From the NCBI GenBank assembly GCA_030374765.1, contig JARGXX010000080.1, forward strand, positions 2,170,001 to 2,234,000: a stretch of DNA of 64,000 nucleotides, given 5' to 3'. Position 1 is the first letter of the stretch, and each line of letters opens with the position of its first letter. The translations under genes were made by a program, and so were the position numbers. The notes under the pieces were generated by a model, which was given only the letters and a program-made list of their open reading frames with translations, was not told where the DNA came from and searched no databases. The stretch comes from Agarophyton chilense (taxonomy: Eukaryota; Rhodophyta; Florideophyceae; Gracilariales; Gracilariaceae). Shown here one piece after another: positions 2,041-58,069 of this stretch.

Positions 2041-2053
2041 AAGTGAAAAAGAT

Positions 2054-2062
2054 ATACTTACC
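2054..2062 (-). other. Consensus 5' splice donor just past the ORF B stop
   Basis: Read on the minus strand the sequence is CAG followed by GTAAGTAT, an ideal eukaryotic donor. It lies a few codons after the TGA that closes ORF B copy 1. Copies 2 and 3 also have an exon ending soon after the shared FKTP motif, so this donor probably marks an authentic exon end and the TGA a later mutation. Confidence 0.5.
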
Positions 2063-2823
2063 TGCCAAGAGAATCGTCTACATCACACCCCAGAGTCATC
2101 GAAACGGCAGGGAGTCTTGAACTTTCTCTTAGGCTCTTTCTTCAACCCTTGATTGAACACTTTCCTCGCTACTCTTTTCCGCGCAGTGTTTGAGGACTTT
2201 TGCTTTTGGCACCTGATCTTCCTCTCCCTCTGTCGCCGATAAAAGCCGTCCTCCACGTCTGAGTCGGATGTCTCATTATCCTGGCTTAAGAAACGCCGCC
2301 GGCCTTTTTCTCGATAGCGAGTTTCTCCTTCAGAATCAGAAACATCTTCTTCACTGCTCTCCTCTTCATCGTCGTCGTTCTCCGCAGACATATTCGATAT
2401 TTCGGAGGAAGATTCTGCTTCCTTGGAACTGCGGTGGTGAACGGGATCTTTCCTAGGCTGCTTCTTGGCTCGCGCGACTTTGCGCTGATGAGAGTCTTGG
2501 GCGTCCTCTTCCGAATATTCGAAAAGTGTGGGTCGCATTAGCTTCTCTTGCCGAGCGCGCTTTCAAGTACACAGGAAAGTTCGAGTCAAACAACTCTATG
2601 TTCCGCCCCATTTGCCTTTGATAGAGGCGGTTGAACACTGCGCGAGCAGAGACCACAATACCTGTTGGAAACCCTGGCTGGACGTTAGCTTTCATCTTTC
2701 TCCGGTCCGATGCCATCGGTATGCGAACAGATCTACGCGAAAGAATGTTACATTCGTTTGTATTCGATTGAACGACCAGTACTGCCCATTTTTCCGGCCC
2801 CTCTGCCACAGGGCCGAATCCAT
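2061..2823 (-). pseudogene. Transposon partner gene (ORF B), copy 1
   Basis: This is the second gene of the CACTA-like element. It probably starts at the ATG complementary to 2,821-2,823, because the first residues (MDSALWQRGR) resemble the start of copy 2 (MNGVIGQSAR). An N-terminal motif follows, F-P-T-G, then A-R-A-V-F-N-R-L-Y, then a FPV segment, all matched in copy 2. Two frame changes (just after the start and near 2,545) lead into a long acidic Ser/Asp/Glu run, a basic run and a KRKFKTP motif also found in copies 2 and 3. A TGA at 2,083-2,085 ends the frame 21 nt before a perfect splice donor. The charged tail suggests a nuclear, perhaps nucleic-acid-binding, protein; that is inference. 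Confidence 0.6.
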
Positions 2824-3436
2824 TTCGCTATGACGCTTGGAGCGAGACGCTCCTTTGCATTTCCTAGTTCACGGCGCTGTCATCTGTGAAGTGGTTCGGA
2901 TTCCTGGCACTCCTGATGTTCCTGAGAGAAGTGAAGTGAACCAAGATGTTAGAATGAACAAATAGAATCGATGGGAAAGCATCCAGATGAATGCCTATAA
3001 CTTGTGTAAACACGTAATCGAGAAGATATTAGAGACCAACAAGACCTACGGAAACTGGTACCTGCCCGAGATATCGGGTTAAGAAGAACGTTGCACTCAG
3101 GAGATAGTGTGGAAAGACGAAAATGGTGCCCCCGTAAAACAGATAACGGAGAGAAGTGGTCTTCCGGAAGAGAGGAGCGGGAAGAGCAAATAAACCGCCT
3201 CGTATACCAAGTGAAAAGTGTGAATTAAGAGAAAAGTTACGGACTTTTAGAATTTCCAGTTTTAGAGAAAATCGGATCAGGACTTTGAGCTCATTCTGCA
3301 AACCCAGAAAGCCAGTAGAAGTCTTGGGAGTCAGCAGAAATCTAACATCGATATTTCATTGAATAACGTGAAAGACGCCGACAAAGACTTAGACGTCGAT
3401 CATACCCTGCATTCTTATCATAGTTTTCAAATCGTC
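2824..3436. promoter_or_regulatory. Intergenic region between divergent transposon genes, copy 1
   Basis: This 613-base interval separates the starts of ORF B (minus) and the transposase (plus). The two genes point away from each other, so the interval would have to carry both promoters. Short ORFs inside it have no recognisable motif. Copy 2 has the equivalent interval, about 1,064 bases long and in mirror orientation. No obvious TATA box is asserted; the promoter role rests on gene arrangement only. Confidence 0.4.
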
Positions 3437-6400
3437 ATGTCAGGGGCAAGAGAAAGGAAACGGTGTCGCCGGGAGATATCTTCTCATAGCAGAAGCGTTA
3501 CGTTTTCGAACGATGACGACCAAGAAGAATTAAACCAAAATGAGGAGGAGGACACAAACGAGATGCAGGGAAGGAGACCTTGTAGGTGGCAAGGCAGAGA
3601 CCAAATCATTCGGGTTGAGCCATTTGTGTTAAGTATACCAGTAGTCTCCCGGTGTGTAGACAATGCTAACTCACAGGACGCAGAGAAATTCCCATGACAT
3701 GAAAATGCGGTCCCAGAACATGAGCGATTGGAAGAACCGCAACAAGATTCAGGTCTCGATGTAAGGGATGCTTCTGAACTGAGAGGAGCACATGATTTTG
3801 GCGCTGTTGCTGGAGTTGAAGCGTGCTGTGATGAAATAGAAATGATGTCCGACGGCATTGCAAGCGAATAGTTTGCTACTTCAAGCGTTTCCAATCCGTA
3901 CCCCAAAAATGCTGAGGCCAATCCAAAGATGGTTCAGTTCAAGTGACTTGCTTGCGTAATCTACGCGGGCGAGCTCACGAATGTTTTGCAAAGAGCCATG
4001 GAGATGCTTATAAAAATTCCTCCAATAAGTGCTCCATTCCATTATCGAACTATGATCACTTCTGCCATAAGCCAGTCTGGCATTTCTAAATCATACGTGC
4101 TAATATGCCCAAATTGACACGCAGCTCAATCCGAGAGGCTCCATTTAGCTTCCACATGTCCCGTTTGCGATTGCAATTTGAAGAAGGGCAATGAGAAGTT
4201 TTGGTTCTTGAGACCTTCATCAGCATTGAAAGGACTTTGTAGCTCCAGTAATTCACTGAAAGCTTTCCTTGAAGGTTGTATGAGAGCGAAGAAGTCAATT
4301 TCCGAAGATAAAGCGAAGACTGCAGTTCATGATTACTCTCCTGGCAACATGCTTGTTCGAAATCACGCCGATAAGCTTTTCAACTGGGACAATGACGGGA
4401 AGGAAATCATCTTGTTCCTCACAATTTCCACTGGTGGCTTCGAGTGTACAAGAAATCGCAAAGGGGAAACTATATCATCGTGGCCAGTTGTATCCAGTGT
4501 GCTGACCTTTCCTCCTATGTTGCGGAGCCAAGCATCCAATCAAATCGTATTTGGAATCATTCCAGCTTCTCACGATGCAGATAACTTTGACACGATCATA
4601 AGCGAGATCTTTCTGGATCTGGAAAGCCCTAAAAGTGGTATCTTGATATCATGGGGCGATGGTAAGCTGCGGAGATTGAGAGCATTCATGGTGTATTTCA
4701 CAGCAGACTGGCCTGCGGCCTCAAAAGTGTTGGGTTACGTAGGGCACACGGGCAGTGTCTTTTGCAGATTCTGCTTGAAGAAACGTGTGTTTCTCAAGGA
4801 ATATAAATGTCTTTGTGCTGTTCCAAATATTGATCCCAAGAGCATCAAAAGTGTCATCAAAAGAAGCCGGTCCTATAAAACTGGCGACGTCATTAACTCT
4901 GAATGTGGTACCAGACGATCGGGGTTGGATGTTGTGTCCACTTGGAAGGCAATTGGATCTTCCAGAACACACGAAAGGTTTCGAAATCAACTCATCAAGT
5001 CCACAGGAATAAAGCAAGCGTCATGCTTGAAAGGAGTTTCCATCGACTACGTTCTACTCTTTCCTATATGATGTTATGCACATGCTTCTGCTTGGCTGGG
5101 AAAAGCATGTCCTGTGCCTTTTGACCGGTACACATCCCCAACATGCGAGGTCTTGCGCTTTTCCAAAATATTTCATACCCCAGCAAACTTTTCAGAACAT
5201 CAATGAGGCCATGAAGTGGTCATGTGCTAGAATACCATCTTCGTGGGGTCGATCCCCTTTATCTCTTCACAATCTTTCGAAATACAAAGAAGAGGATTTG
5301 AAACGGCATGCTGACTTCTACCTGCTTCCATTTTCCCACAAGTTCAATGTCCACAGGAACACTCTACTTATTTTGAGACGCACATTCGATATGATATCCC
5401 TAAGTTTTGGATACAATACTACCCTGAGTTGCGTCCAGCAATTGAAAGTTATAGTGAAAAAAGCGTATGCGAGATTCGTCGACTTGTTTGACAGCAATGG
5501 TACTCATTCGTACTGCTTGGCACCAACCACCCATGCAATTCTTCACCTTCCACAACTACTTCGAGAATGTGGCCCTCTTCCTATTACATCCCAATTTTTT
5601 GTTGAACAACATCTAGGGGATATCGAGCGAAGAATTAAAAAAACATCGAGTCTCACAACTCATCTATTTCACAAGAACTTCAAACCTCTAGCGTTAAAGA
5701 TTACAAACGATTGGAAATCTCCTCCTTGCGAAAGACCAGTACCCGCTTGGACCGAAACGAGCTCGATCCTAATGAAAACGACAAAAACCATGAGTAGTAA
5801 ACCCGCGTTCCATACTAGTGATCAATTTTTTTGGGGCTGTAGGTGGAGAGATTCGAATACGGAAGTGTCGGAAAAGTGCTGTGAAACTGTTTGTCCGAGA
5901 GAACTTTCCCACCTACTCCAATGATTTTGTCATCACGTCTGCAAGATGCTTCAAGAAGTTGAGGGGTACCAAAGAATCACAGCAATTCGTGGTTGAGAGC
6001 AAGGCCGCCCAAATTATTCGTTCTCGACATCCGGGACGCAATTCCCGCCAGAAGTTCTGCATTGGCGCCGAATTTGATCCGGTATCAGACGAATCTTTCT
6101 GTTCAAAATCTCCTGCCATTACAGCTCCACAACCATAGAAACTCAAACACTTGTACTATGGTAGCGCCAAAGATATCATAGAAGTTACTGTCGAGGTTGG
6201 ATCCATGCGGGTAATGACGGCATTTTTGGAGGTAAACTGGCCGTACGGTGTACGAGAAGATGAGATTTTTGATCTTGTGTACACATATAAGAAAGGCAGT
6301 GGAAAAACCACCACGGAAGCCGCTGTTTGTATTCAAAGACTCGTAGGATTTTTTGATATTCAAGGCCGACGTTACTACCTCAATCCAATTCGAATCGAAG

Positions 6401-6456
6401 ATCAAGCGGGGAGAAAGGTAGAGCTACAAGGAGTAGCCAAAAGGACCAGCCGGTGA
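3437..6456 (+). pseudogene. CACTA-like (Tnp2-family) transposase, copy 1
   Basis: The product would have been a DNA-transposon transposase of roughly 1,000 residues. From the ATG at 3,437 one frame runs to 5,071 with four in-frame stops (3,695, 3,869, 3,944, 4,115). An extra base near 5,068, inside the F-P-Y-D-V-M-H motif, shifts the frame to 5,076, and another shift near 5,820 leads to the C-terminal part, which has a stop at 6,136. Visible parts in order: an acidic Arg/Ser-rich N-terminus; a zinc ribbon (CPN...H...CPVC, with one Cys codon now TGA at 4,115); the Tnp2 core with WGDGKLRRLRAF and GHTGSVFCRFC; the P-Y-D-V-M-H-x-L-L-L-G-W motif; the G-P-L-P-x-x-S-Q-F-x-V-E region; and a C-terminal domain ending RRYYLNPI. 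Family assignment follows the Transposase_21/Tnp2 motif pattern. Confidence 0.85.
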
Positions 6457-7440
6457 TGATTGTTTCCCAATCCGAAAAGGTCGACTCCACAGTAGGGTAC
6501 AAGATCACACATGGCAAACTGAAGGTATTATAACTCATGTAGATCATTTTCAACGGGTTGAAAATAGCCTGGATGTATAAAAGATGATTCATAGTAGGAG
6601 CTGCTCATCCTCGTTCTTGTCTCCTGGAGGTACCAAAGCCTTTTCCAGCTTTGAAATAACCTGATGAGCATGCTTCATGATTTACTTCGATGCTTCAGAT
6701 TGAGAATTTGTATGACATGTGCTTATTGTATCTCCATTCAAAAGAGCAACGCATGCACCCCAGAAAAGGAAAATGGCGTCGTGGCATATGGTGAAACACG
6801 ACCACTTTTGAAAGGGTGTATCATTCCGCAGCAAAGAACAACAACATTATGATGGGTACCTTATTATAGCATGCAAAGCTTTCTTGACCATTGACGAACA
6901 GGTTCATGACCTCCACTTGCATGGAGTGACACAGGAACAGGCGTCCCATACCAGTGCGCACTTTTTCCATTTCGGAGTAAGGTATTCAGACCTCCTTTCC
7001 TTCCGATGAACTACATTAGGGGTTATATTCATTTTTTCGAGGACAAAGGGGGCACTTGCACCGCGGTGGCCAGCGGGCGATACCAGAGGTTTGCGAGAGA
7101 GGTGACGAGGTGAAGAAGAAGACGCTTCTGTGCATGGTGACGGAGTGTGATGGCCTCCTGGAGACTAACTTGATACGCACAATCCTTTCAAAACGCTCAA
7201 AACTTTCGTACAAACATTCCCTCATTCACCCTTTTCTCGGTACAAAAAAGATCTGACCGCTTCGTGCTCGCGAGATTTCACGGCTCTTTTTGGTCTTACA
7301 AGGGCCGTCTGTGGGAACTACAAATATGTTAACTTCAAATCTTGATGTGCTCCACCTCGCACCAGAGCGCCTAATAGCAACATTCGCTGCGCTGGTGCTC
7401 CACTGACAAGTGCCTCATCAGTAGTGAAATACACGCACGC
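6457..7440. other. No supported gene
   Basis: This stretch follows the transposase stop and may contain the right end of transposon copy 1. ORFs here are short and without motifs. Around 7,016-7,256 both strands are open for about 70 codons but neither translation resembles a known domain. I see nothing I can name. Confidence 0.3.
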
Positions 7441-7441
7441 C

Positions 7442-8378
7442 CCAACGATCCGTTGCGCTGCTCAAATTGCGCCGTCGTGACGCCGACACAGTTTGCCGCA
7501 CGTCGTCATGAGGCGGATATGGAGGCGTGATCAGCGGCGTGTACATCAAGGTCACGCTCGCTGGAAAGTGATTTTCCTCCGGCCTCCGCTCGACCACAAT
7601 CTGCGACGCTTTCTGAGTGAGAAGTTCGGGCTGGATCGCCGTCAAGGAACAGATCGCTCTGAACGAAAGAATCGCTCCCAGCACAGGGATCGCTCCCAAG
7701 GCAAGTATGGTTCTGGGGATCGCTCGTGCGAGTGAGCTGCGGGTGATGACAGGTCGAAGCAGAGGACAGGGTTTGGAGGCGCGTGGCCTCGTTTGAGTGA
7801 CCTTAGTGACTGGGATAGTAACAGTTCTCGCAAAAAGGAAGAAGGACGCGACAGCTTTGAAAAAAGTAAACACAAGCCGTCAATGGGCAACGCAGACATA
7901 GCGGATAAAAACTCCAGGGATCGGATAGGATCATCTTTCAAGACCGATGCCGCAAAAAGGAAGGACATGGCTACAAAATCTCGTCCGGACGACGTCTCAC
8001 AAAAGTGGGGCTGGGGGGATGGCCAGAACGATGTCCAGGAAGGTAATTGATCCCGCCTTTCGGAACACAGGCCTGCCAAAACGTCAGAATCAAGGTATGG
8101 GCGCGCCAGCTTGAAGTACCTGGTAGATAGCAAGGACGATGTGCCTCCCCCGCTCTCGCGGAAGAACGACGCAACGCAGCCCGAAACAATTCAGACGCCC
8201 CTCCGCTCGTCACAAAAAGCTCGCCGGGCTCCGAGAGCAAGCACGCCGAGCGGCGCACGCAGGCGTCATGATCGCTTTGATACGTTGCATTAAGAAGGTC
8301 AAGCATGAGATGCGTGAGTTCTGCATCCAAAGGAGGGCCCCCAAAAGGGTGGGTTCTCTTCCTTCCGGATATCTCTAG
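7442..8378 (+). pseudogene. Arg/Ser- and Lys-rich gene broken by TGA codons
   Basis: One frame reads from 7,442 to 8,293 with only three interruptions, TGA at 7,478, 7,733 and 8,048. The product is strongly hydrophilic: a segment rich in Asp-Arg-Ser/Gln repeats (7,640-7,735), then a Lys/Asp/Ser-rich part, then a Trp-Gly-rich spot near 8,010. From about 8,195 an overlapping frame gives a better helical, coiled-coil-like continuation (KKLAGLREQARRAAHAGVM) to 8,378, so a frameshift is likely. RS-rich composition is typical of eukaryotic RNA-processing proteins, but I recognise no RNA-binding domain and assign no function. Confidence 0.4.
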
Positions 8379-8384
8379 CTCACG

Positions 8385-9560
8385 TCGGACTGTTCAAGAC
8401 GCACTCCGCAACCGTCGCCGGTGGATTATGAAGTGAACGAGACTCGGGCAAGGTTTACATTTAAACCGGACTGTCCAGTTCCGGCACTGAAGGTACCCAG
8501 ACCAATACCCAGCGTAGTTTGCACAATTCATGAGTAGACGATTCTGGAAGATATAAGGGCATTAAATCTTCCAGAAATAGATTGTTGTAAACGGAAGTTG
8601 TTTTGTATCGCAATCTAGTGTCCTTTCAGACCTAGTGTCTCTACTGTTTGGGTTGGTTGCAAAGCTCATTTCGTGATTGATATATGGGTTTGGTTCGTTC
8701 TGTAGTTGAGAGCGCGAACTTGACAAGAACTTCTGCATGAGAGGAAACCATTTCTGCTGGAACAGAGCTTGCAAAATGAAACAAATAGCAGATTTGTGAA
8801 CAGCTTCTCACACTTGTTTCTGAAAAGCGAAAGTGCAGAAAAAATGTCTCCGATATTGCTGCGGTGGCAACGACGACGAAGTACAAGACCCGAGGCAGGT
8901 GGGAAGAGAGGCGCGCAAGCCTCCCACGGGGTCTCACATGGCGAGGGCAGCTCAATTGGCGAGACTAGCGCGGGCGGAGCGGCGCAGACCAGCAGCGACT
9001 GAGTGGCAATGCGCGTCAGACGCGCGGAAGCGTACATTGGGTGGAGGGATGACGGGAGAGGGGGCGGATGGGGGCATGCTGAAGGGGAGGCCCGCGTGCT
9101 GCGGTGCGAGCGTGGTGACCTTTTTGGCGGGGGAAGAAGAGGGAGGGGCCCCAAGTCGCTTGGTGTTTCGGGGGTTGGGGAGGTGGGGGCGGACGCGAGC
9201 AGTGGCTTTCGAATCGAAAGCATGGGTGGACAAGTACAGCTGCGCGGCACACGACACACGTTGCAAATGAGTCGGCGCTGACCGGGCACACTAAGACCAA
9301 TTTTAAACGTCTCATTTTTTCAGGCGTGTGGCTGGGCTGCAACGTTCAGTACGACTTTCAGCCAATGCCGCGTTGTGAGATGTGCTGTATGCACTGCTAT
9401 GAATACTGAGCAGCGGGTGGAACTCTGTGCTTAGCACAAGGGCAGGGCACTGCGCGCGGCTCGTTCACGCCCTGGCTCACGACCTGGCCCACGTGCTCGC
9501 CTCTGTTTGAACGGCAAATGACTACAGAATGGCACGCGGGCAACGCTGTCTTCATGCCTC
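8385..9560. other. GC-rich stretch with low-complexity open frames
   Basis: From about 8,870 to 9,260 the plus strand is very G-rich (runs such as gggcggatgggggcatg), so several frames on both strands stay open by composition alone. The longest is a minus-strand frame of 207 codons (8,666-9,289), which is Pro/Ser/Arg-rich low-complexity sequence. None shows a conserved motif. It marks a compositional island; I do not call a gene. Confidence 0.35.
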
Positions 9561-10885
9561 CACCGTGCCGGCTGCGCACATGCCCATGTTCTTCAGCAGC
9601 CTCTTGCGTACTACAGCGGTGAGCGTAGTCACCATAGTATGACCGGGTATTCTCGCCCTGCCCATCGCACTGCACGCAGTCGGTCACTGCCTACTCGTGC
9701 TGCTGTTCACATTCAACCTGCTTACACAGCTCGGAGTCACCGTTGCCACTAGAGGGCTTTTGCAACGCGCATACTATGCACCTTATGAAGCTGTGGACTA
9801 TCAGCCCGTTGATTCGTACACGCAGTCGCATTTGAGCCAGCTGACTTCCCTGCAATCGCTGGCGGCGCTTTTCATCCCGTACCATTGGTACACGCCGGCG
9901 TGATGGCTTTATGTTTCCGTCGGTGGATGCCATCACTGGGCCGCAGGCGAACTTTGCGCTCACTACCCTTCTGGGTAGATTGCCCATCCAATTGCTGGCA
10001 GAGGTGTGTTTGCTGGTATCATCCCTGCTCATAACGCTGGCATACCAGAAACTCTTGCCGTCCCTCACAATGGGCACCATCGCTAAGGAGTGGTACTCAT
10101 TGTCTTCATCTCACTCATGCTTACACGAGGGTTGGCCATTCGTCAGCCGGCACTAACTCATGGAAGCTCTTGCAACCAGATGATCCCCTACTAATAGGTG
10201 CCATAACCTTCAGTGGTGTCCTAATACAGACGATCAGTGCCCTTGATACCAATAATGGAGAGGGCGAGATCTCATGTCATTGTTGCACTTTCGACAGTAT
10301 CTGTACAAGCCTTTCCAACTCGTATTGCAAAATTAACAAGATCTTCATTATGATCGGGTTTTCTTCGATTTTCCAAACCACGTGTCCCAGCAAATATGGA
10401 TGCAATGGGATTGATACTGGCTTCCTGAACTGTTTGATGCTGACGATAACAGCGAATTACCGTACCATGCGCCGCTTCTGTTTCAATAGTTTTAACATTG
10501 TCATGTTAACTGGGACGGCACGCGTGGGCAAGCGCCCGAGACGCGTCCCGTCCGTCCCGCACAATCCACTTTGCACTCCGAGTCCAACATCACCGCACGG
10601 GCTGGCGCATGTGGGGCTGCCGTTGCACACGCTCATCCTTTCTTGGCCAACTATCTCTTTGTTAAGTTGGGCACCGACGTCGTCAATCTGCACGCGCTGG
10701 ACATGACTCTCGCGAAAACCGCTAAAACCGATCTTCCCGCTGAAATGGGAACAAGGACCACACTCTTCTATCAACACCATGCGCGAGTGAACACCACTCA
10801 GATGCTCCACAGCATCATGAACAGTTCCACGCACGTTATGCAAGCGTTGGCCGAATGGAACAGGGGAGAAGTTGTTGATGATTGA
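9560..10885 (+). pseudogene. Unassigned GC-rich coding remnant with membrane-like segments
   Basis: A plus-strand frame from about 9,590 to 9,903 gives two hydrophobic stretches (around LALPIALHAVGHCLLVLLF) followed by a polar Tyr/Gln/Ser part. A second open piece at 9,911-10,156 is also hydrophobic. The last part (10,571-10,885) is a soluble Thr/His/Asn-containing sequence ending NRGEVVDD. The pieces lie in different frames, so if they are one gene it is frameshifted or spliced. High GC can keep frames open by chance. No family is recognised. Confidence 0.3.
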
Positions 10886-11039
10886 CCAATGCGCTGCTGG
10901 AGTTGACGACAACCCCAGGCACTCTACAGCTCATACATTTCATTTCAATATATATTTATCAAACATTCTAACCCTTCTTAACTAACCAACCCTTCCCTCG
11001 ACCGGGACCCTGGGTTGGGCTTCCCTGTTTGTTTCTCCC

Positions 11040-11340
11040 GGGCTCCCCCTTAGTTTTTAAAAGCACGGTTACGTCGACTTATTGCTGCTGACATAACCCT
11101 CACCCAGCTCTTCAACTGAGCCAATTTTTTCTGGGCCTCCTGGACCTGTTGCTGACAAGCCCGGATGCAGTTCACCTCTTTCTCGAGCTAAGCTATCTTC
11201 TCTCGAAGAGTGGGCTCTACGTCCTCCTTCGTCTCTTCTGCACTCGCCACCCAAGGCACCAATTCATCCTCTTTTTTTGCCCCCACCTCTTCCAGCTCCA
11301 CTCGTCACCTTGTTGGGACACGGTGATTGTGAGATAGATA
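11040..11340 (-). pseudogene. Coiled-coil protein fragment
   Basis: Read on the minus strand, a frame with one internal stop encodes a Glu/Lys/Gln-rich segment. Its regular hydrophobic spacing (around QQQVQEAQKKLAQLKSW) is characteristic of a coiled coil. The fragment ends at a stop about 20 codons later. No globular domain is visible and neighbours give no clue, so only the coiled-coil character is claimed. Confidence 0.4.
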
Positions 11341-12111
11341 CCCCGAGTGCACTCATATCAAGTTAACTTTATTTATATATTATGAGAATCATGGTTAAAC
11401 GGTACTTTTTTATGTCTGTGGTCGCCAGCTTACTGTTTGTTACCAGTATAAGTACTAGCTAGGCATGACTTGCACACATTATGGCTCGGATCGCTTGAGC
11501 CGATACGGTTGATGTCAATCACACACCTGAGAAGCTTCACCTCCTCCCGATGGGCCTCCTCATCGTTCGCACGACGTAGCCTGGGCCTCTTCACATGGAT
11601 GAAACTCATATATCGATCGAGCAAGGGACTGCCAACGCTTAACGCCGGACATGTTGAAAAGTGGTTTTTATGTTCCCATATCCAGAACCTGCTCCTACGA
11701 GAACCCTTCAAATGTAGGATAGATCACATTCAAGCGTTAGAAGAGAAAAACCGAAACCTTAAACCTGTTCTTAATGGTGTTGGAAACGAAATGACCAGGA
11801 ATGTGGTCTTAGAAAACTGGGAAACTAGCAATCTATTGCGTTCACTGGAGAAGACGTGTGTGCCATGACTCAAGCAATGGAATCCGCGTGGGAGATCTTG
11901 GAAAAACGATAGCATGTTGAACATCAGAGGGCACATTGCGTGTGTACTGTGTCTCTAAAGCAGGCTGGAATACTGTTCTACAGGCACAATTGTTTCGAAA
12001 TGTGCGATGTTGTGGACTTTCAAAACGCAATGTCCCGCAGCGCTGTCACCGAACAGCCCCGTCGCCCTGCGCTTTTACTTTCTTTCGGCGTCGCATGGAG
12101 GGCAGGGCTGA
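11341..12111. other. Short fragments upstream of the carrier remnant
   Basis: The plus-strand frame at 11,470-11,868 ends in a helical stretch (HIQALEEKNRNLKPVLNG) that looks like another coiled-coil piece. The sequence at 11,870-11,910 continues helix-like in another frame. From 11,940 to 12,110 nothing is recognisable. These could be remnants of the same gene as the 11,040-11,340 fragment only if an inversion occurred, since the strands differ. Confidence 0.3.
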
Positions 12112-13565: not shown

Positions 13566-13589
13566 GCAGTCATCACCGCACGTTAGAAC

Positions 13590-14100
13590 ATGGTCGTAGA
13601 ACGTCAGGGGCTTTGCTCTTTTTATTCTTTTTGGTGCTGTTTCGTTTTGGATGAAGACAGTGGTAGTTGGGTACCAATGCTCATGTCAGTTTATTAACTG
13701 ACACGAAATGAAAGATTTACTAAAATGTAGATGCGATTATACTACTGTACAATGGCTAGCTTTTGCTTGAAAAGCTATGAACACGTGTTTTGTGCGAAAT
13801 AATCGATAGTTGTAAGCCGCTTTCTATCGAGAGAACGACGTTTGCGGGTGTCGATGAGCGGGCACATGAGGTGAAGATATCATGAATGGTTGTGAATCTA
13901 CGTATGTAGGACTTGAACACAATAAGCGCTGTGATGATGCGGTAACATGCGCATTGTAAGACATTGCTACATTCTGTTGTCATCCCGGTGAGCAACTGCA
14001 CGATTGATGTACCAAAAAATAAAACCAAGGTTAATTTCGATTCCGCGTTCACATTGAATTATGCGCTCCTCACACATGAAACGACAACACGTAACACAAC
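13590..14100. other. No supported gene
   Basis: The sequence after the carrier remnant contains only short frames. The minus-strand frame of the TMEM230-like fragment runs into it to 13,967, but that part (rich in Cys, Arg and Ile) does not resemble the family and is probably 3' untranslated or intronic. Confidence 0.3.
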
Positions 14101-14101
14101 G

Positions 14102-14290
14102 TACATTGCGATAGATGAAACCACGAGCTCCACGTAATGTTTGAATCAAGTTATAAGCGACAGAAGATCCTGGAATGAATGAAATGGACCCAACAGCAAT
14201 AAAGGCAATCGATGTAGCCTGATATCTTTCGCGTAAGTGTAGCAAGCCAACGATTAAAAACGAAATACCGAAACCAAAAAAGAAATAATG
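14102..14290 (-). pseudogene. TMEM230/TMEM134-like membrane protein fragment
   Basis: The family consists of small two-helix membrane proteins of the secretory or endolysosomal system. Read on the minus strand, one hydrophobic helix (FGFGISFLIVG) is followed by a short polar turn and a second helix. The second helix carries the family-type core S-I-S-F-I-P-G-S-x-x-A-Y and then R-G-A-R-G-F-x-Y. The usual acidic C-terminus (an Asp-Asp-ending tail) is not seen; the frame runs on to unrelated sequence. The position after the Arg-Asn couplet (AAT|GTACGT) could be a splice donor, so a further exon is possible. No start codon for the N-terminal part is evident, so the fragment is partial or broken. 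Confidence 0.5.
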
Positions 14291-14361
14291 CTACGAAGAT
14301 TGTTCTCCAAGGAAATGATGTTCTCTGTTCACCTGCAGCACATCGAAGAAAGAGATGTGCA

Positions 14362-14976
14362 TCACTGTAGCGACTTTGCGAAGTGTCGTAGAAAATGGCT
14401 GGAATCTCTTCCTGAAAAGTGTGGCAGACATTGGTGCTGCGGTTGGTTTTGGCGCTTATTTGAGTGACGAACTTCTCTATAGGACCGGTTGTTACAGAAA
14501 GATATAGTTGTCTGTTGTCGCAACATCTCAGCTTCGGAGTGAATAGCGAAGACGAAAGCAACAAACAAAGCAAAGCACGGAAGCCTAACCTCACGAAGCA
14601 ATCGCCTTTGCGTAAACCTTGACAAGGCGCCCCACAATGCACGTGCGACTTGAAAACGCCACTTTCACACGACCCCCGCACGAAACGCGCTTCAATTGGC
14701 CAAAAGGCGCAGCGCTTTCGCCTTCTCGACTTTTTTGTCAATTGAGCAAAGATCGGAGAGCATAGAATTAAATTGCTGAGAAATTTGTTCAAGAAAGGGC
14801 TCCACACTCGTATGATTTTCGACAGCTATCAATGGCCTTCCATCATACAGCCCTGATGATTTTCTAGACGGCCCAGCAGTGAAACATATGAGGGAAAACA
14901 TCACCACCTTCAGTGAGGATGTGATATGTCCATCGATGAAGTAGACTGCCAGGTATCCTTTCTCGCTCTCTGTCAT
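14362..14976 (-). pseudogene. Unassigned interrupted ORF
   Basis: Two open segments (14,692-14,976 and 14,362-14,637) lie in the same minus-strand frame, separated by two stops. The first ends in a helical, coiled-coil-like stretch (around LCSIDKKVEKAKALRLL) and the second contains one hydrophobic segment. The frame continues towards the TMEM230-like fragment. It may be the upstream part of that gene or an independent relic. No domain is recognised. Confidence 0.3.
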
Positions 14977-15490
14977 TGTGCGCCAATACGGTCACTATAT
15001 CAGTTGCAAGATATCCATCCAATTGCAGGTTTCTGCAAAGCATGTTGAGAGGGTGGTGTCCAAACTTCAAACTCGTTTGGCAGTTGCGCTTGTTGTTGTT
15101 CAGTGTATTGATTAAGAGTACTGTCATCGCGCAAATTTCGTTAAGAGGATACAGATTGAATACGAGAGATGGCGCTGAGAACGTCCGCATATGTGTGTTC
15201 TTCAGAAAGTCTCCCAGCAAAAACATCAAGCACATCTGTGGGGCCTTTATGGGAGGCAGGTCGTCTTTGCAGCGAAGGATTGATTCCCGACTGCTCAGAA
15301 CGTCTGAAAAGGAAGCGCATGTTCCAGGATGGTTCTCTGAAGCGCGCAGTAAGAATTCGGAGAGGCTCCTCCGGATGGTGGTCGGTATCAATTCGTTCAA
15401 ACAGCGCGTGCCGGTGTCGGCACGCGCTGTGAGAGCGTGCGAGCGTGTGCGCGAGCGCACGGATCCTCCCTTGGTCAGAACATTGCCCAC
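14864..15490 (-). CDS. Unassigned 208-codon ORF
   Basis: This is one of the longer uninterrupted frames of the window, but the opposite strand is also open for 192 codons over the same stretch, so chance openness is a concern. The predicted protein has a basic Arg/Thr/Ser start and a Leu/Asn-rich middle (around TVLLINTLNNNKRN) without known motifs. It overlaps the 13-bp perfect hairpin at 15,401-15,430. A real gene is possible, not demonstrated. Confidence 0.25.
   Translation of the reverse strand: MGNVLTKGGSVRSRTRSHALTARADTGTRCLNELIPTTIRRSLSEFLLRASENHPGTCASFSDVLSSRESILRCKDDLPPIKAPQMCLMFLLGDFLKNTHMRTFSAPSLVFNLYPLNEICAMTVLLINTLNNNKRNCQTSLKFGHHPLNMLCRNLQLDGYLATDIVTVLAHNDRERERIPGSLLHRWTYHILTEGGDVFPHMFHCWAV
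15401..15430. repeat. Perfect 13-bp inverted repeat with GTGT loop
   Basis: Bases 15,401-15,413 (ACAGCGCGTGCCG) are the exact reverse complement of 15,418-15,430, with only GTGT between them. It is followed by a run of alternating GC-rich purine/pyrimidine bases. It could form a stable hairpin in DNA or RNA. No flanking direct repeats are seen that would mark it as a tiny transposable element. Confidence 0.8.
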
Positions 15491-15703
15491 AAGTGAAATG
15501 ATTGGCGTGCAATTTTGTGCGCAGAGTGTTCCAGTTCAATCTGCGCCATGTTGAACTGGTTTCGGCCGTATTTGGAATGCATGTCATGTTGCGTTCACCA
15601 TTAGGACACTAGCAGGCACATAAATTAGATTTCAAAAAATGGCTTTGGCCGAATAGACATGTGCCAGGTACGCTTCGCTCCTTACAGCACATATTGGGCT
15701 ACT

Positions 15704-17500
15704 TTACAGTACACTACTGTACCGACCCTGGTCACATACAATGTTCATAGGGATACAAACCTCAAACCATTCTTGCGATAGAACGACTGCAGGTCTCTCA
15801 TATTGGTCTTGAAGTTCCTCGTTTACAAAGCGGGACTTTCTCGTCTTCTTCGTAAACATAGTATCTCTCATTAATAGTGCTACCGCACCCATGTGAGCTG
15901 CGTCACTTTTTGGATACACTTCGAGTTCACCTTTCTGAATATTCATTGCAAGATCTAGGTCCAGACCCCTATCAGTAACGGGTTCTTTCCATTCTATCCT
16001 CCTGTGACCATTCCTTCTTAAAGTAAAACATTTGATCATCTATAACTCTGTCACATCCTCCCAGCCAGTTCCAAGGGACTACGCGCCATGAAAAAGCCTC
16101 TCTTCGACGAAAAGGGTAGGTACTTGTCAGGCACGTACTGCTCCTCCGAAGCGAGACCTTGCTTCTTGCTCCAATGTAATGGTTTTTGGAAGCGCCCACA
16201 TAAACTCTACACTATTTGACAATCGCACAGCGTAGCTCGTGTGGTCGAGCTCCAGCGGGCCTTCTGCTTCGTTTCTGTTTTTTGAGAACGCTAATAAGAT
16301 TCGCGGAAGATTTCAACGGGCGATGATCATGCTCTCCATCATCTCCTTTCACTCTGTTGCTCCTCGCCTAGTGCAGCTCTCTCTTTGCCATTCTCGACGG
16401 AGTTAAAGACGGTCGAGGTGTTTTGGAGCTAGATTGCGCAATCTTAATATACTCTTCCCAATCTGATTATTTATGTCAAGGACTGAGTCCATTTCCTTGG
16501 GAACTGGAGGCAGGGGCGTTAATCTCAAGTATCGCATCGGAGTCACGCCATCAAATAGACGAGGTGTTTTTCGCCTCGTTACACTAAACTACTTCGGGGC
16601 CAACATTTGTGTAGGTTTCATAGAGGCAGGTGTTGCAGAAACCTTGTTACCGTCTGCACTGGCATCTTGAGTGCGCTCTTTCTCCCGAATCAGCGTTCCA
16701 GATATTCTTGTAGTGTAACAATAAAGGTCGCTCAAACGAGCAACTGAGCCCCAAGTTTTCGTTCGAAACTGGCAATGAGGCCTTGAGTCCTAAACATGGA
16801 ATCTCGGCTGGATGTGACCTTCACCAAAGAGAGAGATGGCAGAACCACAATCGAAGTGCTTCCTTTTTTTTCGGTGCGTTCTCCGCATTTTTCTCTGCTT
16901 GTTTTGCTCGAATTCCGTGTTTTTCATAAGCGTTCGACTGAATAACTTGCAAATTACGAATAACAGTACCCTTATTGTCCCCAAGTAAGGCGACAGTGGA
17001 TCGCTGATGTTGACTGACGGCTTGATCTGTTTCTGGAAGGTTTGGTTGCGCTCCTTGTCCCCGGACTTGGGGTTGATTTGCTCCAAACGAAGGGGTTACA
17101 GTTGTCTGCTGTCCGTTTTCATTCAACCCAAAGCCGAAGTTAAACCCTCCAGGAGACGACTGGCCAAAACCTCGTAAACCACCAACCCCAAACCCTTTGT
17201 TCGACGCTGCTCGGTTCTTGGCAGTCTGATTGCCAGGTTTTGCTCCGTGCTGAGGAGCTGAAAACTGGCTCGGCTGACTTCAAAATAGCTTGGGTTGCGT
17301 TCCAGTCCCAAACCCAGAGCCAGTGTTGCCGAACGAGTTTCCAGAATTTTAGTTAGGATTGAACATGTTTGGTTGACTTGCACTACCAAATCCAGCAGAC
17401 TTGCCAAAACAAGCGCCTGCTTGTTGATTGTTTGTTCGAAAACCACGACCAGAACCGCCCTTAACTGTTTTATTCCCGAATCCAGTCAACAGGGCTACTT
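15704..17500 (-). pseudogene. Nup98-like FG nucleoporin, broken
   Basis: An intact Nup98 is a nuclear-pore component whose FG repeats form the permeability barrier and whose autoproteolytic domain cuts the Nup98-Nup96 precursor. On the minus strand, 17,490-17,085 encodes at least ten FG dipeptides in GFG, SFG, CFG and NFG contexts in a Gly/Asn/Gln/Ser-rich setting, interrupted by stops at 17,349 and 17,280. At 15,990-15,905 a segment reads RGLDLDLAMNIQKGELEVYP, matching the core strand pattern of the Nup98 autoproteolytic domain (G-L-x-L-D ... V-x-V-Y-P). The cleavage motif H-F-S is not found. Between the two regions several frames are needed. FG content plus the APD-like segment in the right order supports the call. 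Confidence 0.6.
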
Positions 17501-17765
17501 CTTTGCCTTTGCTGGTTTAAGTGGTCGTTTAATTACTTGATCACTCGTTTGGAGCAGACCTTTTTCCGTTCCAAATCTAAAATGGTCCTGCTTGGAGGAA
17601 ATAATTCAGGCGTCGGTGCCTGTGCCTGGCGAGAAAGTAACGGCGCTTAGAGATATCAAGATATCCTAGCAAAGAATCAATACAAGATACCGGCTAAGTA
17701 GATCTATCGCTAAGTCTCAAATTTTGAGAGTACACAAGCGTTCTTGATGTATTTTGCTTCAGTCC

Positions 17766-20412
17766 CTAGTGCCACCAGACGTTGACAAAAATGACCTTTC
17801 CTCTGGATTTTCTTCCACGCACGTTTCCCAGAACAGTACCTCCCCAAATTTGCCTAGTCATACCATAATACATATGTTTCATCACATCTGTTTCATTATT
17901 TGAATACGACTCACTAACGTTGGGTGATGTTTCTGGAGTGAAAAGTGCGCAATCACAGCACTTCTGGCGAGTATCGTTTGCCCTCCCCTTCCTTTTTCCG
18001 TAATAATCCACTGTCTCGATGAATCTGTTCTTTGAACAAGATTGTTGCAGAATCAAACATTTTTTTCTCTCTAAATGACAAGGATTTCCACTTGGACATA
18101 TTTTGGCGAGTATAGCGAACATGAAACTGCCACCGATTATCAGTCAAATCTCCCATCTCTTTTCCAATTCCGATAAAAAACGCAGCCCTTTCGTACTCAT
18201 CGGAGGTAGCTTAAACTGATGGTTTCGGGTACCAGCACGAAAGAAGGTTAACATTTTGGTCCAAACCGGCCGGCGGCAGCCCACCGTTGACTATTTTCAA
18301 AGCAAATAAAGTGTGATTCTTAAGGAAAATCTGTGATGAAAGGCTTTTCTTCGAGTTCACTCGTCGCCCAATCTCATCTACCAAACTTTCAACCAGGAAG
18401 TGGGAGGTGTTTGGAAGAGGTCCATACTGCTTCAGGATCTCTGGAATATGGAGAATGGCACGTGTTGTTGGCGTGAAGCAGAACCCGTGTTTATCTACCG
18501 ACCCAACCATGGTTACAAATTGTGCGTAGAGCTGCTCTATAATGTTCTGTAGCTTCAGAAAACTCGATAGCTCCCAATTATACTCGAAAACAACACCTAT
18601 CATCTCGCTTTTCTTCACCCATACGTTGTATACCTTCTTCTGTACTTTAAAGCGATGCAGGAATGGCATCAAAAACATCTCTCCATGTTTTTTTAGGTCT
18701 GGGGCTGTGAATAGAGATACATTATCGAGCGAGAATGGTGATCGACTTCACGAGGCGGGAATGGTGCTTCAGTACTTATCAATACCCACATTGACCCTGG
18801 ATAGAATCTCTGAAGAAATCACAAAAGTCGGAACATTTGTTTCAAGTTTCTCAACACCAGAATGGCAGCCTGTTATGACCATGAGAAAATGCCTCACCCA
18901 TCCTAAAAGTACGAGATGCATGAAATCATATGGCGCTGAAAATGGAAAGTTCATGGTTAAGTTTTGAAGGAGTGATACTCTAGAAACCCCAGTCTTCTTG
19001 GCGACCATCTTCTTCTCTTTAGATCCATCTTCAAGGTTTTTCAGCTTTCTCTATATGGCTCTTATCTGTGCTGTGGTCCGAGGATCAGGGCACTCAATTT
19101 TAATTATTGTCCCTGTAGCATACTCAAGACGGCCGGCCGCAAAGCTGCGAATAATTTTTTTAACAATTGTTCTTAAAGCTACAGATGATCTGCGACTTCT
19201 CAATTATCTCTAACGTTTGAAACAGAGTCGACAAAATGTTGACCCTGTATGTCCAATATATCTCAGAACCTTCGTCGCAGCAGGCCAATCTGATGTGAAA
19301 ATAGACACAAATGCATACGATTTTCTTTGTCACTCCTCAGCACAGACGGCATTCGTTTCTCTTTCGAGTTTCTGCAGATCTTCTACAACAGCTTCAGTGA
19401 AAGATTCCAGAAATTATGACTTGTGGGCTCTTGGAATCGCAACAAATATCGAAGAATTTGGCTCTTTTGACCTTTGGGAGGGCGTGTAGTTCAGAACAGT
19501 CGATACTAAAGGCCAGCAGAACAAAGCAGCTCCAGATATAGTCCTCGAGTCCTCAGATTCATCTGTTGATAATGTAAGCAATACGTTAATCCTAACCTGT
19601 TGGTGTTGCTTCCATGTCTTTAATTTGTCACCATGGAACTTTCGTAATAGCAGACCGTGGTGGTGGTCGTGATGAGAATTTCCCACAAAGGCATTTGCAA
19701 AGGCGTTTTCGGCTCTTTTCAATGAAAAAACGATCTCTGAAAAGTATTCTGGGCTTCTGCAGAGCGCCTTGTTCAAATCAGAGGGTTTGACATACCATAA
19801 GTTTTTTTCGAGCATCCAAGCAGAGAACGGTTGCACTCTGGGCATTCAAGCACATTTTTCAAAGAACCACTTCGAGCGGCGTGTTCTTCTGTGCAGATGT
19901 TACCAAAGTTCTTGGGACAATCGACATTCTTCTAACATAGCTCCAAAGAGATCTATATGAACACTTTACTTCAACTGGGGCAACAGAGAGCACACGTTGA
20001 ATGCTCCGCTGTGATATTCCGGTAATCTCTGCAGTAAAGATGAAGGCGCTAAGCCTACGATATTCGCGTTGTACAAGTGAGTTATCGGAGTCCAGCTGTG
20101 CTTCATCGGCCTCTTTAATGGTAGACGTGGAGTTGTCTTGTGAGTGAAAGACTTCGCTATGTGTATAGGTGAAATCACCATCCCCACCAACCAATTCAAT
20201 TCGTCCTGGAGGAAAGAAAGATGCACGTTGTTGAAACTCATATTCCCGGGGGCTGGACTGTTGGGAATTGGGCAGTGATGAGCGTACATCACTACCGGGC
20301 TGGTCAGGTTGGGTTCCTTCACCCACTGGTAAAAATCACTGATAATCGTGCTGTTCAGGAGAGAAATATTTCTCGAAACGGTGTCTACTTCTTCGTCGTT
20401 ACGTCGAAACAT
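17766..20412 (-). pseudogene. CACTA-like (Tnp2-family) transposase, copy 2
   Basis: This is a diverged relative of the transposase at 3,437-6,456. It probably starts at the ATG complementary to 20,410-20,412. An acidic Ser/Asp/Glu N-terminus is followed by a zinc ribbon (HAARSGSLKNVLECPEC, about 19,825-19,890). Then come a W-Y-V-K-P-S-D-L segment matching copy 1, the L-x-L-S-T...W-P-L-V-S-T-V-L region, GHTGSTFCRLC-like sequence (about 19,240), P-Y-D-F-M-H-L-V-L-L-G-W (about 18,910) and the G-P-L-P-N-T-S-H-F-L-V-E region (about 18,390). Many stops and frame changes lie between them. The two copies differ throughout, so they are old insertions or separate subfamilies, not a recent duplication. 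Confidence 0.8.
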
Positions 20413-21476
20413 GAACTATAGAGTGAAACGAAAAGGAAGCGGAGGCACTTTCGAAGCTAATAGACGTTTGAAGCTCCCAACGATTTCTGCTTGGCTGCAT
20501 AGTCTTCTGTGCTCCGTTACATTCATCGCTTTGCCTGGTTTTTGTCTTTCTCCGCTTTTTTATACTAGACTTCTCGGCATTCTCAACTTCTCACTTGCTT
20601 CTCTTTTTAGTCTCTCCATTCTGGACAGAAGTGCTTGTGAAAAATCCACCTTATCTGAGATACGTGAAGTCCACTGTGATCGTAGTACCGTGAGCATCGC
20701 TATGTGTACAAAAACAGCTTGGAATATCAAAAGTTGGAAACTAATGAACTTTGATTATATTTGCCCGACCTATACTCATGTGTGGAATGGTTTCATATCG
20801 AGAAGATCATTAATGTAACAGTGGAAAGCTATCTTCGGCGCCATACTGAGATGAAACGAAAGCGCAGAGCTAGTATCAATCGAACGAGCGAAACGAACTT
20901 TTACTTCAGCGCAGGGTTTCCATCTTCTCTGTTTTGCTCTACATATTCCCAACCTCTGTCTCCCTCTTCACCTTTCCTCACCTTTCAACAGTCCCTTTTC
21001 CTGTCTTATATCTTTTCTATTTCCTTTATATTCCCCCACCCCATCTATTACACCTTTTCTACGGTCGAAAAAAAACACAGTAACCAACACTTTTGCTATT
21101 TTTTCCTTCCATTCCCCCGAGCATTGTTTTACCTTCGCATCATACTTGAAACCCATTCAGAGCAATTTGTATCACGTCTGTTTGTCGAATAAAACTGGCT
21201 TTGTGTGATCTTCGTTTCTTTTGCATTCATTTGTCGTTCCGTTGCTACGCCGCATTGATTCATCGGTATCTGTCGTAACGTTATCCCGTTTATGCGGCAA
21301 AGCGTGCGTAGCTTAGCTCTGGACTCCACGAGGCGGTACATGGCGTTGTTCTTCGCAGCCTACTAGTTGCCCTTTTCAATTACGTTCCCGTTCTTATCTT
21401 CCGTTCATGTTCGTTACCCGGTGTCAACTCGACGACACATCAGTTTCTTTAACAGCATCTCATTTCAAAACAAATC
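20413..21476. promoter_or_regulatory. Intergenic region between divergent transposon genes, copy 2
   Basis: This lies between the start of transposase copy 2 (minus) and ORF B copy 2 (plus). It contains a striking pyrimidine tract (about 20,925-21,065, almost only C and T with stretches such as cctctgtctccctcttcacc) about 410 bases upstream of the ORF B start. Pyrimidine-rich tracts are common in some eukaryotic promoters and 5' leaders. Open frames across it are explained by composition. The regulatory role is inferred from the divergent arrangement. Confidence 0.4.
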
Positions 21477-23601
21477 ATGAATGGAGTCATTGGTCAAAGC
21501 GCAAGGATCGCTTCCAATGCAGATAGGAACTCTGGTTCTCCCGATCGAAGCAAGGCTACGGCTGCACAGTAGCTGGAAATGCTAAAACCAAACTGACCTG
21601 TGGTTCCTTCCGTCGCAGATAAGAGACGATTCAAGCCAACATATTGCCATAATGTTCCAACTGGAAGCCCTTTTGCCGCGAGGATAGTATTCAACAGGCT
21701 GTATTTCGAAAAGCTAAACTTAGACTTGGAGAAGAGCAACTACTTTCCGGTGCATATCGAGATGGCTAACGCTGTCAAAGATGTGATTCACCAGTACCCA
21801 TACCGAAAACATGGAATGACTCGTGGACAGAAAACCTATCGACAGATAAAGTTCGAATATTCTTCTCATCTCAATCACCTCGAAAACAGGGTGTTCGATT
21901 CTCTCTCAGTCCTTGCAGTTTCGAAAAAGGGAAGGGTTGTGACGGATTTCATTAAAGAAATCCTTCAAAGAGACCAAAAGGCTGCTACGCCTCAAAAAGC
22001 GAAGAAGAATCATGACAAAAGATCTTCTGAAAGGGTTATCGAGCATATCGTGGAAGAGCCGCTTGCCTCAAATGGTGCATCTACATTGGCAAATCGGCGA
22101 ACCTCAACCAATTCCCTCCGTAAAGCATTTATATCTGAGTCAGATGTAGATATTTTGGACAGGACTCTTCATCGAAACAAAGCCGCCAAGCGTAGACATT
22201 GCAAGAATGTCCAAGTGGACTCTGAACACCAGAACAGTAACACAGGCTCATGTAACTCTCATATCAAAGCCGCAGACGAGAACCGTGGACGTATCTGTCC
22301 TCAGTCGCGTAGCCTCAACTCAAACCGCCAAGGAAACAGTAACCCAAACTTCAATCGTAAGAACATCTACTCCACTAACATCATGTACGGCGATTTCTAC
22401 TATTACCGTTACGGAAAACGCAACAATAATGACCATTACAAGGCTTCGAACCGAGCGGAGAGGGCCGACTAGAAAACAGTGAGGTCAACACTAAGCCATG
22501 TTCTCGTACCTTCAACCGCCAGAGAAAAAGTCGAGGAAGCCCCGAACACAGCAGGAAGCGTCTCGCAAACGATGAAAACGAGATAAGCGAGGATGAGATT
22601 GAGCCGTGCCCGGCTACCCCTAAGAAAATTAAAAACGTCGGTGAAAGCTCTCATCAGTTCTCTGATCAGTTTGGGAAGACACACAAGCGACCAGACCTAC
22701 CTTGTTTGCACCTTGAATTAATCAGTAGGTCTCGAATAAGCGTTCGTTCGCCTCGCTCTTGCATCTAAATTTCTTCGCCTCCGTCTTATCCTCGGCGCCA
22801 ACGTAGGTGGAAGTCAATGAGTTTGATTCATATGGCTCTTCAGCGGTTAGAATTCTTCTCCATACTTTTGTATTTAGCTAAATCACCTTCTCTGTTTGTG
22901 TTTGATTTTGTCGTTTAGGTCATTAGATAATCATCAAACATAATATATGCAATGCAGGAAGATTATGGTACACCTGCCTGTGGAGCGACCTACCACTCCG
23001 TTTTGGCTCATTCTATGTCTTCAGATCTTGGTATGTTTTCGAACTCTTTTTATGAGTAACTATTTATATAACTCACATTGGTTAAGCTCTCATGCGCACC
23101 TTCACACCCCGACAGATATAAATTCTTTCGTTTTCTTCGACATCTCGTTGCAAAGAGCCCACCGTTTGTAAGTGACAAACCATTAGGCAAGCACAGCCCA
23201 ACTTGATCTCCGAAGGAAAGAAAACAAGATTCAAAACGCCGTCAAGTAAGTTCCCCTACTGGAAACAGAGTTAATCATCGTTGTGTCCCTCTGGTCTATT
23301 CCCCTCCAACGTTTCTGACTTTTTCTGGGATCCCAGTCTGCGCGATCAGAACTCATGTGGGTGACTTTTGGGTTTAGAATTATTGACCAAGTCAAAAAAG
23401 ATCTAGACCAGAACCACTAACATAAAAAATGCTCTTCATTCGATATGTTTATCATTCCAGTCTGCGATAGAGCCTTAACAATCTGATTTTTCTCCTCTTT
23501 CACAGTTTTCCTCCAAACTGCCATTCTTCACCCTCCAGATTTAGAGGCACCGCAATCATACCGACGTCGTTCCTCCTTCTACGAAAGCGCGCAATGTACA
23601 G
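21477..23601 (+). pseudogene. Transposon partner gene (ORF B), copy 2, with short exons
   Basis: The ATG at 21,477 opens a frame with two early stops (TAG 21,570, TGA 21,594) and then about 290 open codons to 22,472. A single frame change continues it for about 100 codons to near 22,765. The N-terminal motif (N-V-P-T-G, A-R-I-V-F-N-R-L-Y, Y-F-P-V-H-I) matches copy 1; the rest is Lys/Arg/Asn/Ser-rich with several nuclear-localisation-like basic clusters. Alignment with copy 3 indicates further exons: a micro-exon at about 23,154-23,167 between GT (23,031) and GTAAGT (23,168), a 49-nt exon 23,197-23,245 (CAG before, GTAAGT after, encoding a K-T-R-F-K-T-P motif) and an exon 23,506-23,601. The acceptor before the micro-exon is CAA instead of CAG. 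Confidence 0.6.
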
Positions 23602-23744
23602 GTCACGTATCTTAGTTCTCAAGTGCGGTCAATTCTCTACACGACTAATTTTTAAGCTAACCTGTGTATCCCTCATTTCCAAGTGTGCGCACACGTTCGA
23701 CGCCGCTTTGAGGTCTTACTTTATTTCTTGCACGTTCATAGAGG

Positions 23745-44060: not shown

Positions 44061-44069
44061 AGTGTATAT

Positions 44070-46440: not shown

Positions 46441-46446
46441 TCGATT

Positions 46447-49320: not shown

Positions 49321-49324
49321 TACT

Positions 49325-56778: not shown

Positions 56779-57372
56779 TGGTTCTGAATTTATGAAAGTA
56801 TGTGCCAGTTCTCATGCTCTGAATTCTAACAGATTTAACCTCACCGAAGCTCTTTGAACAATCGGAGAAATTTTCATGATGTGGCTACTCTGAAGCGAAT
56901 TTTCTAACCATAAAGCACATTCATCGTTACATTTTACATGCGAAGTCGATGTTGGCTTGCTACAAGGCGTGGTAGTGTTCTGATCGACATATTGACAGAC
57001 CAACCTTAATATGAATAGTTTACAACTCTGACACTGTTAATTCGCACATGTTCTGGGCTATAAACTGACTTATTGGGTCTTTTGTTGGACAAATTGAGAG
57101 CTAAATTTGGCTTTAATCTCGTCGCGAGTCGTACAAAAATGTTTAGTACCTGGCTGAACTGATTCTGCACATATTTGGAACAGAAAAAATAAACGAAGTG
57201 GTCTAGTTTTCGGGAACTTTTAATCAGAACATGATCAAATTTAACACTTTTTTGAGACACATTTTTATGGCATCTGGTTCGCTATTATAAGTTCATACAT
57301 GGGGCATCTCTTAATGATTGCATTTGGGACAAATAAATGACCCACATGCAGGGACTTTTCTGGGCCATATTT
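56779..57372. other. No supported gene
   Basis: This is the spacer between the ORF B relic and the copia LTR. Only short frames are present. The part from 57,280 to 57,372 may belong to the LTR if its true edge is further left than TGTACA. Confidence 0.3.
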
Positions 57373-57970: not shown

Positions 57971-58069
57971 CTTGCCTCTTACACTCTCTTGGCTCTGGCG
58001 TTGCCGTCGGCTTATCCACCATGTTCTCTACTGCAATGTGATCTGACCGAAAAGTGGCAGGACAGAGAT

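Follow-up and report, generated by a model that had tools for sequence, protein, structure and literature searches.

A 64,000-nucleotide stretch of the genome of the red alga Agarophyton chilense (assembly GCA_030374765.1, contig JARGXX010000080.1, positions 2,170,001 to 2,234,000 of the forward strand; hereafter the window) contains two sites at which a transposase gene (Tnp) and a second gene, open reading frame B (ORF B), point away from each other, the second site being inverted relative to the first. An earlier note on this DNA read the two sites as mirror-image copies of one CACTA-like transposon whose two genes move together. Does the pair form a mobile unit, where does that unit end, and to which known transposons is it related? 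We propose, with a probability of about 0.72, that the window holds remnants of a large cut-and-paste DNA transposon from the CMC (CACTA-Mirage-Chapaev) clade, representing two families in which a tnp2-type transposase gene and ORF B lie divergently between short, imperfect tips. The observations established here comprise ends common to several copies, a divergent linkage that recurs across the genome, a tnp2 domain and a catalytic residue pattern.

Two divergent gene pairs from two families

Using proteins from sister copies as tblastn queries, we located both the divergent pair at the first site and the inverted pair at the second, as the earlier note had described them.

2086..3028, minus strand: ORF B of element 1; broken, lacking about 600 bp in the region of 2561; 76–77% identity to a 515-residue frame on contig C131 (tblastn)
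3266..6453, plus strand: transposase of element 1; broken, with G in place of the first catalytic D (tblastn and residue check)
17631..20065, minus strand: transposase of element 2; broken; 26–43% amino-acid identity by segment to element 1 (tblastn)
21600..22472, plus strand: ORF B of element 2; open frame of 290 residues; 36% identical to its element 1 counterpart, E 1.9e-22

The matched core of the second ORF B spans 21603–22007. Similarity between the two ORF B proteins extends over about 136 amino acids, and the two transposases match with a best E-value of 1.9e-83. A self-comparison of the window (matches longer than 100 bp, E ≤ 1e-10) found that the two pairs share no DNA match; they therefore represent two old families, inserted in opposite orientations. 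The mirrored layout of the earlier note is thus correct, but its reading as one element in two copies is not, and the lack of a DNA match likewise rules out a single element duplicated as a mirror image. The Tnp genes of both window copies are broken, and the approximately 600 bp missing from the ORF B of element 1 are present in sister copies.

Common ends delimit a 14.4-kb mobile unit

1330..15752, plus strand: element 1, the whole mobile unit of 14.4 kb, with sharp match limits; tips CCCCGTAAAACA on the left and CCCTATGAACAT on the right, read inwards
8388..9211, no strand assigned: stretch absent from the C73 copy, marked by an alignment break after which C73 resumes at window position 9212; probably a nested insertion

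The limits of element 1 are defined by its relatives elsewhere in the genome. Eleven further copies, seven from the same family and four from related subfamilies, start at position 1330 with differing flanks, and seven further copies stop sharply at position 15752. Both ends could be read in six copies, located in the window and on C73, C27, C105, C109 and C13, and these ends are common to all six. ORF B and Tnp both lie between them in three copies (window, C13 and C27), which bears out the proposal that the same ends would flank both genes in several copies. The C73 copy has kept ORF B and retains Tnp only as a remnant, while the copies on C105 and C109 have lost Tnp through internal deletion. 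In none of the six do element ends fall between ORF B and Tnp. The common ends, together with a divergent layout at 47 loci (see below), support the earlier claim that the pair moves as a unit. Its proposed limits of 2.0–6.5 kb have to be replaced, however: the actual unit includes at least one more gene segment. A candidate end at about 8386 was discarded, as sister copies continue beyond it; about 820 bp of other DNA follow position 8387 in the window, after which the sister match resumes and runs to 15752.

The inverted tips of element 1 are short and imperfect (CCCTGTAAAACA and CCCTATGAAC), and the tips CCCTGTAAAACA and CCCTATGAACCT are alike at 8 of 12 positions. They start with CCCTGT and CCCTAT and not with CACTA or CAC, so the name CACTA, in its strict sense, does not apply. 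A CCC start is found in most of the left and right ends read, with exceptions such as CTC, CGC, CCT and CCA in decayed copies. The 3-bp flanks are equal in two of the six copies, on C73 (GTC) and C109 (GTT), the chance of at least two in six being about 0.0035; 2-bp flanks are equal in one copy only (AC/AC on C105).

Near its left end, the C109 copy (L038) is split by a 413-residue open frame that resembles a Tc1/mariner transposase by eye. We also considered the element tip as a telomere-linked feature and rejected this, since the 60 bases at the end of contig C80 carry no telomere repeat.

Genome-wide linkage of ORF B and transposase

The genome (79.8 Mb in 135 contigs) was searched with a 453-residue piece of Tnp and a 121-residue core of ORF B. 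The Tnp query yielded 94 hits (203 candidates, 93 scored), which merged into 86 loci, and the ORF B query yielded 71 hits, which merged into 67 loci; no further loci came from a second ORF B query. A Tnp hit lies within 8 kb of ORF B at 48 of the 67 loci, divergently at 47 and on the same strand at one; loci that belong to the same family are not independent observations. Under random placement (2000 trials, contig limits ignored), 1.3 ORF B loci were linked on average and never more than 6, and the linkage is therefore not attributable to chance. Viewed from the Tnp side, the 86 loci divide into 47 that are linked and divergent, two convergent, one on the same strand and 36 at which ORF B gave no hit.

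The gap between the matched cores of linked pairs is mostly 1.4–2.7 kb. Tnp identity to the query ranges from 29 to 100% at the divergent loci, with at least 70% in seven of the 47 pairs, 36–49% in 27 and less than 36% in 13. Because the divergent layout persists across such a wide range of identities, we consider it to be old. In one other family, both genes have uninterrupted frames: Tnp frames of 1057 residues without stops occur at three loci, and ORF B frames of 464–468 residues without stops at eight.

Classification of the transposase

The transposase had been called tnp2-type in the earlier note, and a Tnp fragment on C111 (L032:4385-5416) agrees with this, scoring 45.0 bits against the Pfam family Transposase_21 (cut-off 28.6, E 9.4e-12). 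The same fragment scores 30.2 bits against DUF1258 (cut-off 33.1) and 14.5 bits against Plavaka (cut-off 26.3). In element 1, the Tnp region at 4178–5071 falls just under two cut-offs, with 32.1 bits for DUF1258 (33.1) and 25.8 bits for Transposase_21 (28.6).

A D-D-C(2)C-H(3)H-E pattern is discernible across families in decayed copies: the first D is kept by 8 of 9 copies compared and the second by 12 of 12, C(2)C by 7 of 12, and H(3)H and E by 10 of 13 each. From this pattern we infer which D and E residues are likely to be catalytic. The CMC clade is described by the pattern D, D, C(2)C, H(3-4)H, E (PMC12730594; here and below, published elements are compared on the basis of excerpts from the papers cited). 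Because of the Transposase_21 match and the residue pattern, combined with tips that are not CACTA, the element is, as judged from its sequence, a member of the CMC clade and not a CACTA transposon in the strict sense.

ORF B and the subterminal region

The longest ORF B frame of family 1, the 515-residue frame on C131, matches no Pfam family at E ≤ 1 and does not qualify as a TNPA/TNP1-type protein, and the two ORF B frames in the window give only weak, non-significant Pfam matches. Comparison of ORF B with the PDB returned nothing significant; Erlin-1, at E 0.4–0.67, was taken as a chance match. No relatives of ORF B or Tnp were found in IMG/VR scans or in one scan of prokaryote genomes. By analogy, the likeliest role of ORF B would be that of a TNPA-like DNA-binding helper. 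In plant CACTA elements, diverse subterminal repeats are bound by DNA-binding proteins that are unrelated to one another (PMC2613891).

1330..1480, plus strand: left subterminal zone with repeated ATG[GT]CC, four forward copies in the window; motif picked after inspection

Within the first 150 bp, ATG[GT]CC occurs six times each in the C73 and C13 copies, four times in the window and once or twice in five other copies, at a background of about 0.2–0.28 per 200 bp in the element interior. An unbiased count of exact subterminal k-mers showed no clear excess.

A captured mitochondrial-carrier segment

12121..13599, plus strand: segment captured from the host, bearing a broken mitochondrial-carrier gene; approximate limits, transferred from C73 coordinates

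Between Tnp and the right end of element 1, the window matches a mitochondrial carrier at 12713–13352, and two sister copies match the Mito_carr family with E-values of 3.5e-24 and 1.2e-20. The carrier is present at 11 element loci. Its nearest intact relative lies on C22, inside a 1241-residue open frame, with 77% protein identity, and other carriers in the genome reach no more than 40%. At the DNA level, C22:351597-353084 and C73:755348-756825 share about 1.5 kb at 73% identity.

Element 2 and other features of the window

17496..23748, minus strand: element 2 remnant; Tnp side cut at 17496, ORF B-side end at about 23744–23748
54978..56785, plus strand: 3' part of ORF B with element end, a third copy; 76% DNA identity to 21934–23748, same end

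On the Tnp side, two relatives of element 2 continue past the cut at 17496. On the ORF B side, none of the 10 other matches extends beyond 23748, where all of them end; eight of the 10 are copies of one duplicated block, so that three independent loci support this end. The block bearing the element 2 end occurs as eight nearly unchanged repeats on C14, C81, C82 and the end of C80, some of them within a few kb of contig ends. In C14, C81 and C80, this block has relatives of Tnp about 9 kb away on the same strand.

Several further features were noted in the window. Between the two elements, at 15753–17495, a minus-strand reading is rich in FG repeats and appears nucleoporin-like by eye. A reverse transcriptase at 31120–31956 (RVT_1, E 9.5e-15) probably belongs to a gypsy-type retroelement, and an open frame at 46775–47344, without a Pfam match, resembles a PIF/Harbinger-type transposase by eye. 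Repeats at 42382–50221 and 57411–57954, with 70–83% identity, recur around the Tnp copies in L032, L033 and L041. The region 58001–62000 displays strong strand asymmetry, with a GC skew of 0.26–0.27 and an AT skew of -0.15 to -0.20; a tandem repeat was looked for there and none was found.

Proposed mechanism and alternative explanations

In the mechanism that we envisage for the two families, the transposase would cut at the tips and thereby generate a 3-bp target duplication. ORF B would bind the subterminal repeats as a helper, in a role like that of plant TNPA/TNP1 without being recognisably related to them, and a shared upstream region would drive both genes and hence ensure their joint expression. 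In this reading, family 1 also acquired about 1.5 kb from a mitochondrial-carrier gene and multiplied afterwards. Plant CACTA-type elements need two proteins, usually supplied by one transcript. We tentatively suggest that a CMC lineage with CCC tips and 3-bp duplications might have found a second, independent answer to this need, in which Tnp and a non-homologous, TNPA-like ORF B form an obligatory divergent pair under one shared control region; at present, we regard this extension as doubtful.

A number of observations weigh against the two-family reading or its individual steps. The earlier note advised looking for 3-bp target duplications; the 3-bp flanks match on C73 and C109 but are unequal in the other four of the six copies (C105, C13, C27 and the window). 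The motif ATG[GT]CC, selected post hoc, occurs once at the right end of the C73 copy and not at all at that of the window. Six of the seven Tnp fragments, which come from broken copies, pass no Pfam cut-off or obtain no score. Differences between decayed subfamilies at codon positions 1/2/3 indicate little constraint, both for Tnp (0.21/0.176/0.21 and 0.193/0.158/0.179) and for ORF B (0.226/0.224/0.266), and AlphaFold, run on a single ORF B sequence from the window, produced no usable fold (mean predicted local distance difference test score, pLDDT, 33.9). Among the loci, 36 of 86 for Tnp lack an ORF B hit, some linked pairs are not divergent (one same-strand pair counted from ORF B; two convergent and one same-strand counted from Tnp), and 19 of 67 for ORF B have no Tnp hit within 8 kb. 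Five of these 19 were inspected at the DNA level. C105:771185 has both element ends and a deleted Tnp region, and C111:607964 has a divergent Tnp N-terminal sequence alongside that the C-terminal query missed; no Tnp was found within the 10 kb inspected at C95:154364 and C105:56737, and C80:2165937 is a fragment. ORF B copies without a linked transposase, which the earlier note had singled out as telling against joint movement, thus do exist, but two of the five inspected are copies that have lost Tnp or still bear its N-terminal part.

The same standalone ORF B and Tnp loci could suggest that the pair comprises two separate elements, or an often-duplicated bidirectional host gene pair, with no mobile unit at all, and the ends of the element 2 type do sit in a block that was duplicated as a whole. 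We consider this scarcely credible in view of six copies with common sharp ends and differing flanks and of two pairs of matching 3-bp flanks; the shared ends by themselves already disfavour separate elements. An explanation with a better, though still low, likelihood holds that ORF B was captured as a passenger, or serves something other than transposition, such as silencing evasion, and was retained by descent. It would account for the absence of any relationship to TNPA/TNP1 or of a Pfam family above cut-off, as well as for the weak codon-level constraint in decayed copies, and such cargo is known in CMC elements, where fungal examples carry TET/JBP genes (PMC12730594). However, ORF B accompanies Tnp across families spanning 29–100% Tnp identity to the query, and open frames of 464–468 residues at eight loci are long for a useless passenger. 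We prefer a transposon with two genes of its own, in which ORF B would act as the helper.

For the carrier segment, the question is whether it long served as functional cargo. Over 639 bases, fixed differences between C22 and four of the 11 element copies are distributed over codon positions 1/2/3 as 24/15/83, which points strongly to constraint, whereas differences among the four copies are distributed as 45/30/41. These counts indicate that the segment split from C22 mostly under constraint and that the copies have decayed freely since. The pattern would fit long-functional cargo, yet it also arises if a lost paralogue or the copy of another species was captured shortly before the family multiplied. 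Furthermore, three of the four copies read TAA where C22 reads CAC and the window AAA, and the upstream part, EF-hand-like by eye, is out of frame with the carrier in all four copies (C22 was not compared upstream of 215 bases). Long-lasting function within the element is, in our view, improbable. As at least three of the four copies descend from an ancestor that already had the stop, the carrier is most likely a passenger. The simplest reading of these sequences is that the element captured a gene related to the one on C22, perhaps a paralogue since lost or one from another species, shortly before the family multiplied.

Comparison with known systems

Plant CACTA/EnSpm elements (En/Spm, Tgmt*) resemble the present transposon in their tnp2-type transposase, their second protein and their large size. 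They are described as having asymmetric subterminal repeats and a 3-bp duplication (PMC4158355, PMC2613891), features to which a left-end motif chosen post hoc and matching flanks in two of six copies may correspond here. Capture of host gene fragments, reported for plant CACTA elements (PMC8978399), finds its counterpart in the carrier segment. In contrast, the tips found here begin with CCC instead of CACTA, and ORF B matches no Pfam family, not even TNP1. In Tgmt*, both functions are supplied by one large gene, whereas the second gene is separate and divergent here.

Animal TRC elements of the CACTA superfamily, such as SmTRC1, share with our element the Transposase_21 domain and tips that start with CCC (CCCTAGTAG... 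in Tribolium; PMC1636069). They differ in their 2-bp flanking repeats, seen in 7 of 14 S. mansoni copies, compared with equal 2-bp flanks in one of six copies and equal 3-bp flanks in two of six here; a divergent partner gene is not mentioned in the excerpt of that paper. DUF1258 of Mirage is described as close to Transposase_21 (PMC3985635). Its scores here, 32.1 and 30.2 bits, stay below the cut-off of 33.1, and Transposase_21 scores higher on the longest fragment. In the red alga Chondrus crispus, large En/Spm elements of 16–20 kb with 4–5 ORFs (PMC6431247) are similar in size and in having more genes than usual. Our literature search, which left most subscription papers and Repbase outside, brought up no CACTA-type element described as having a divergent second gene, which is not evidence of absence. 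Oppositely oriented transposase and accessory genes are known from fungal IS3EU elements with alpha-kinase and TET/JBP genes, although their transposase superfamily is unrelated (PMC12730594).

Taken together, a two-gene transposon that is larger than first thought, belongs to the CMC clade, lacks CACTA tips and has a layout conserved in this genome is real and well supported. The occurrence of the divergent two-gene version in many families of one genome provides a natural test of how each of the two proteins depends on the other, as well as of whether one role can be filled by unrelated helper proteins. The carrier segment, in turn, adds a further case of gene capture by CACTA-type elements.

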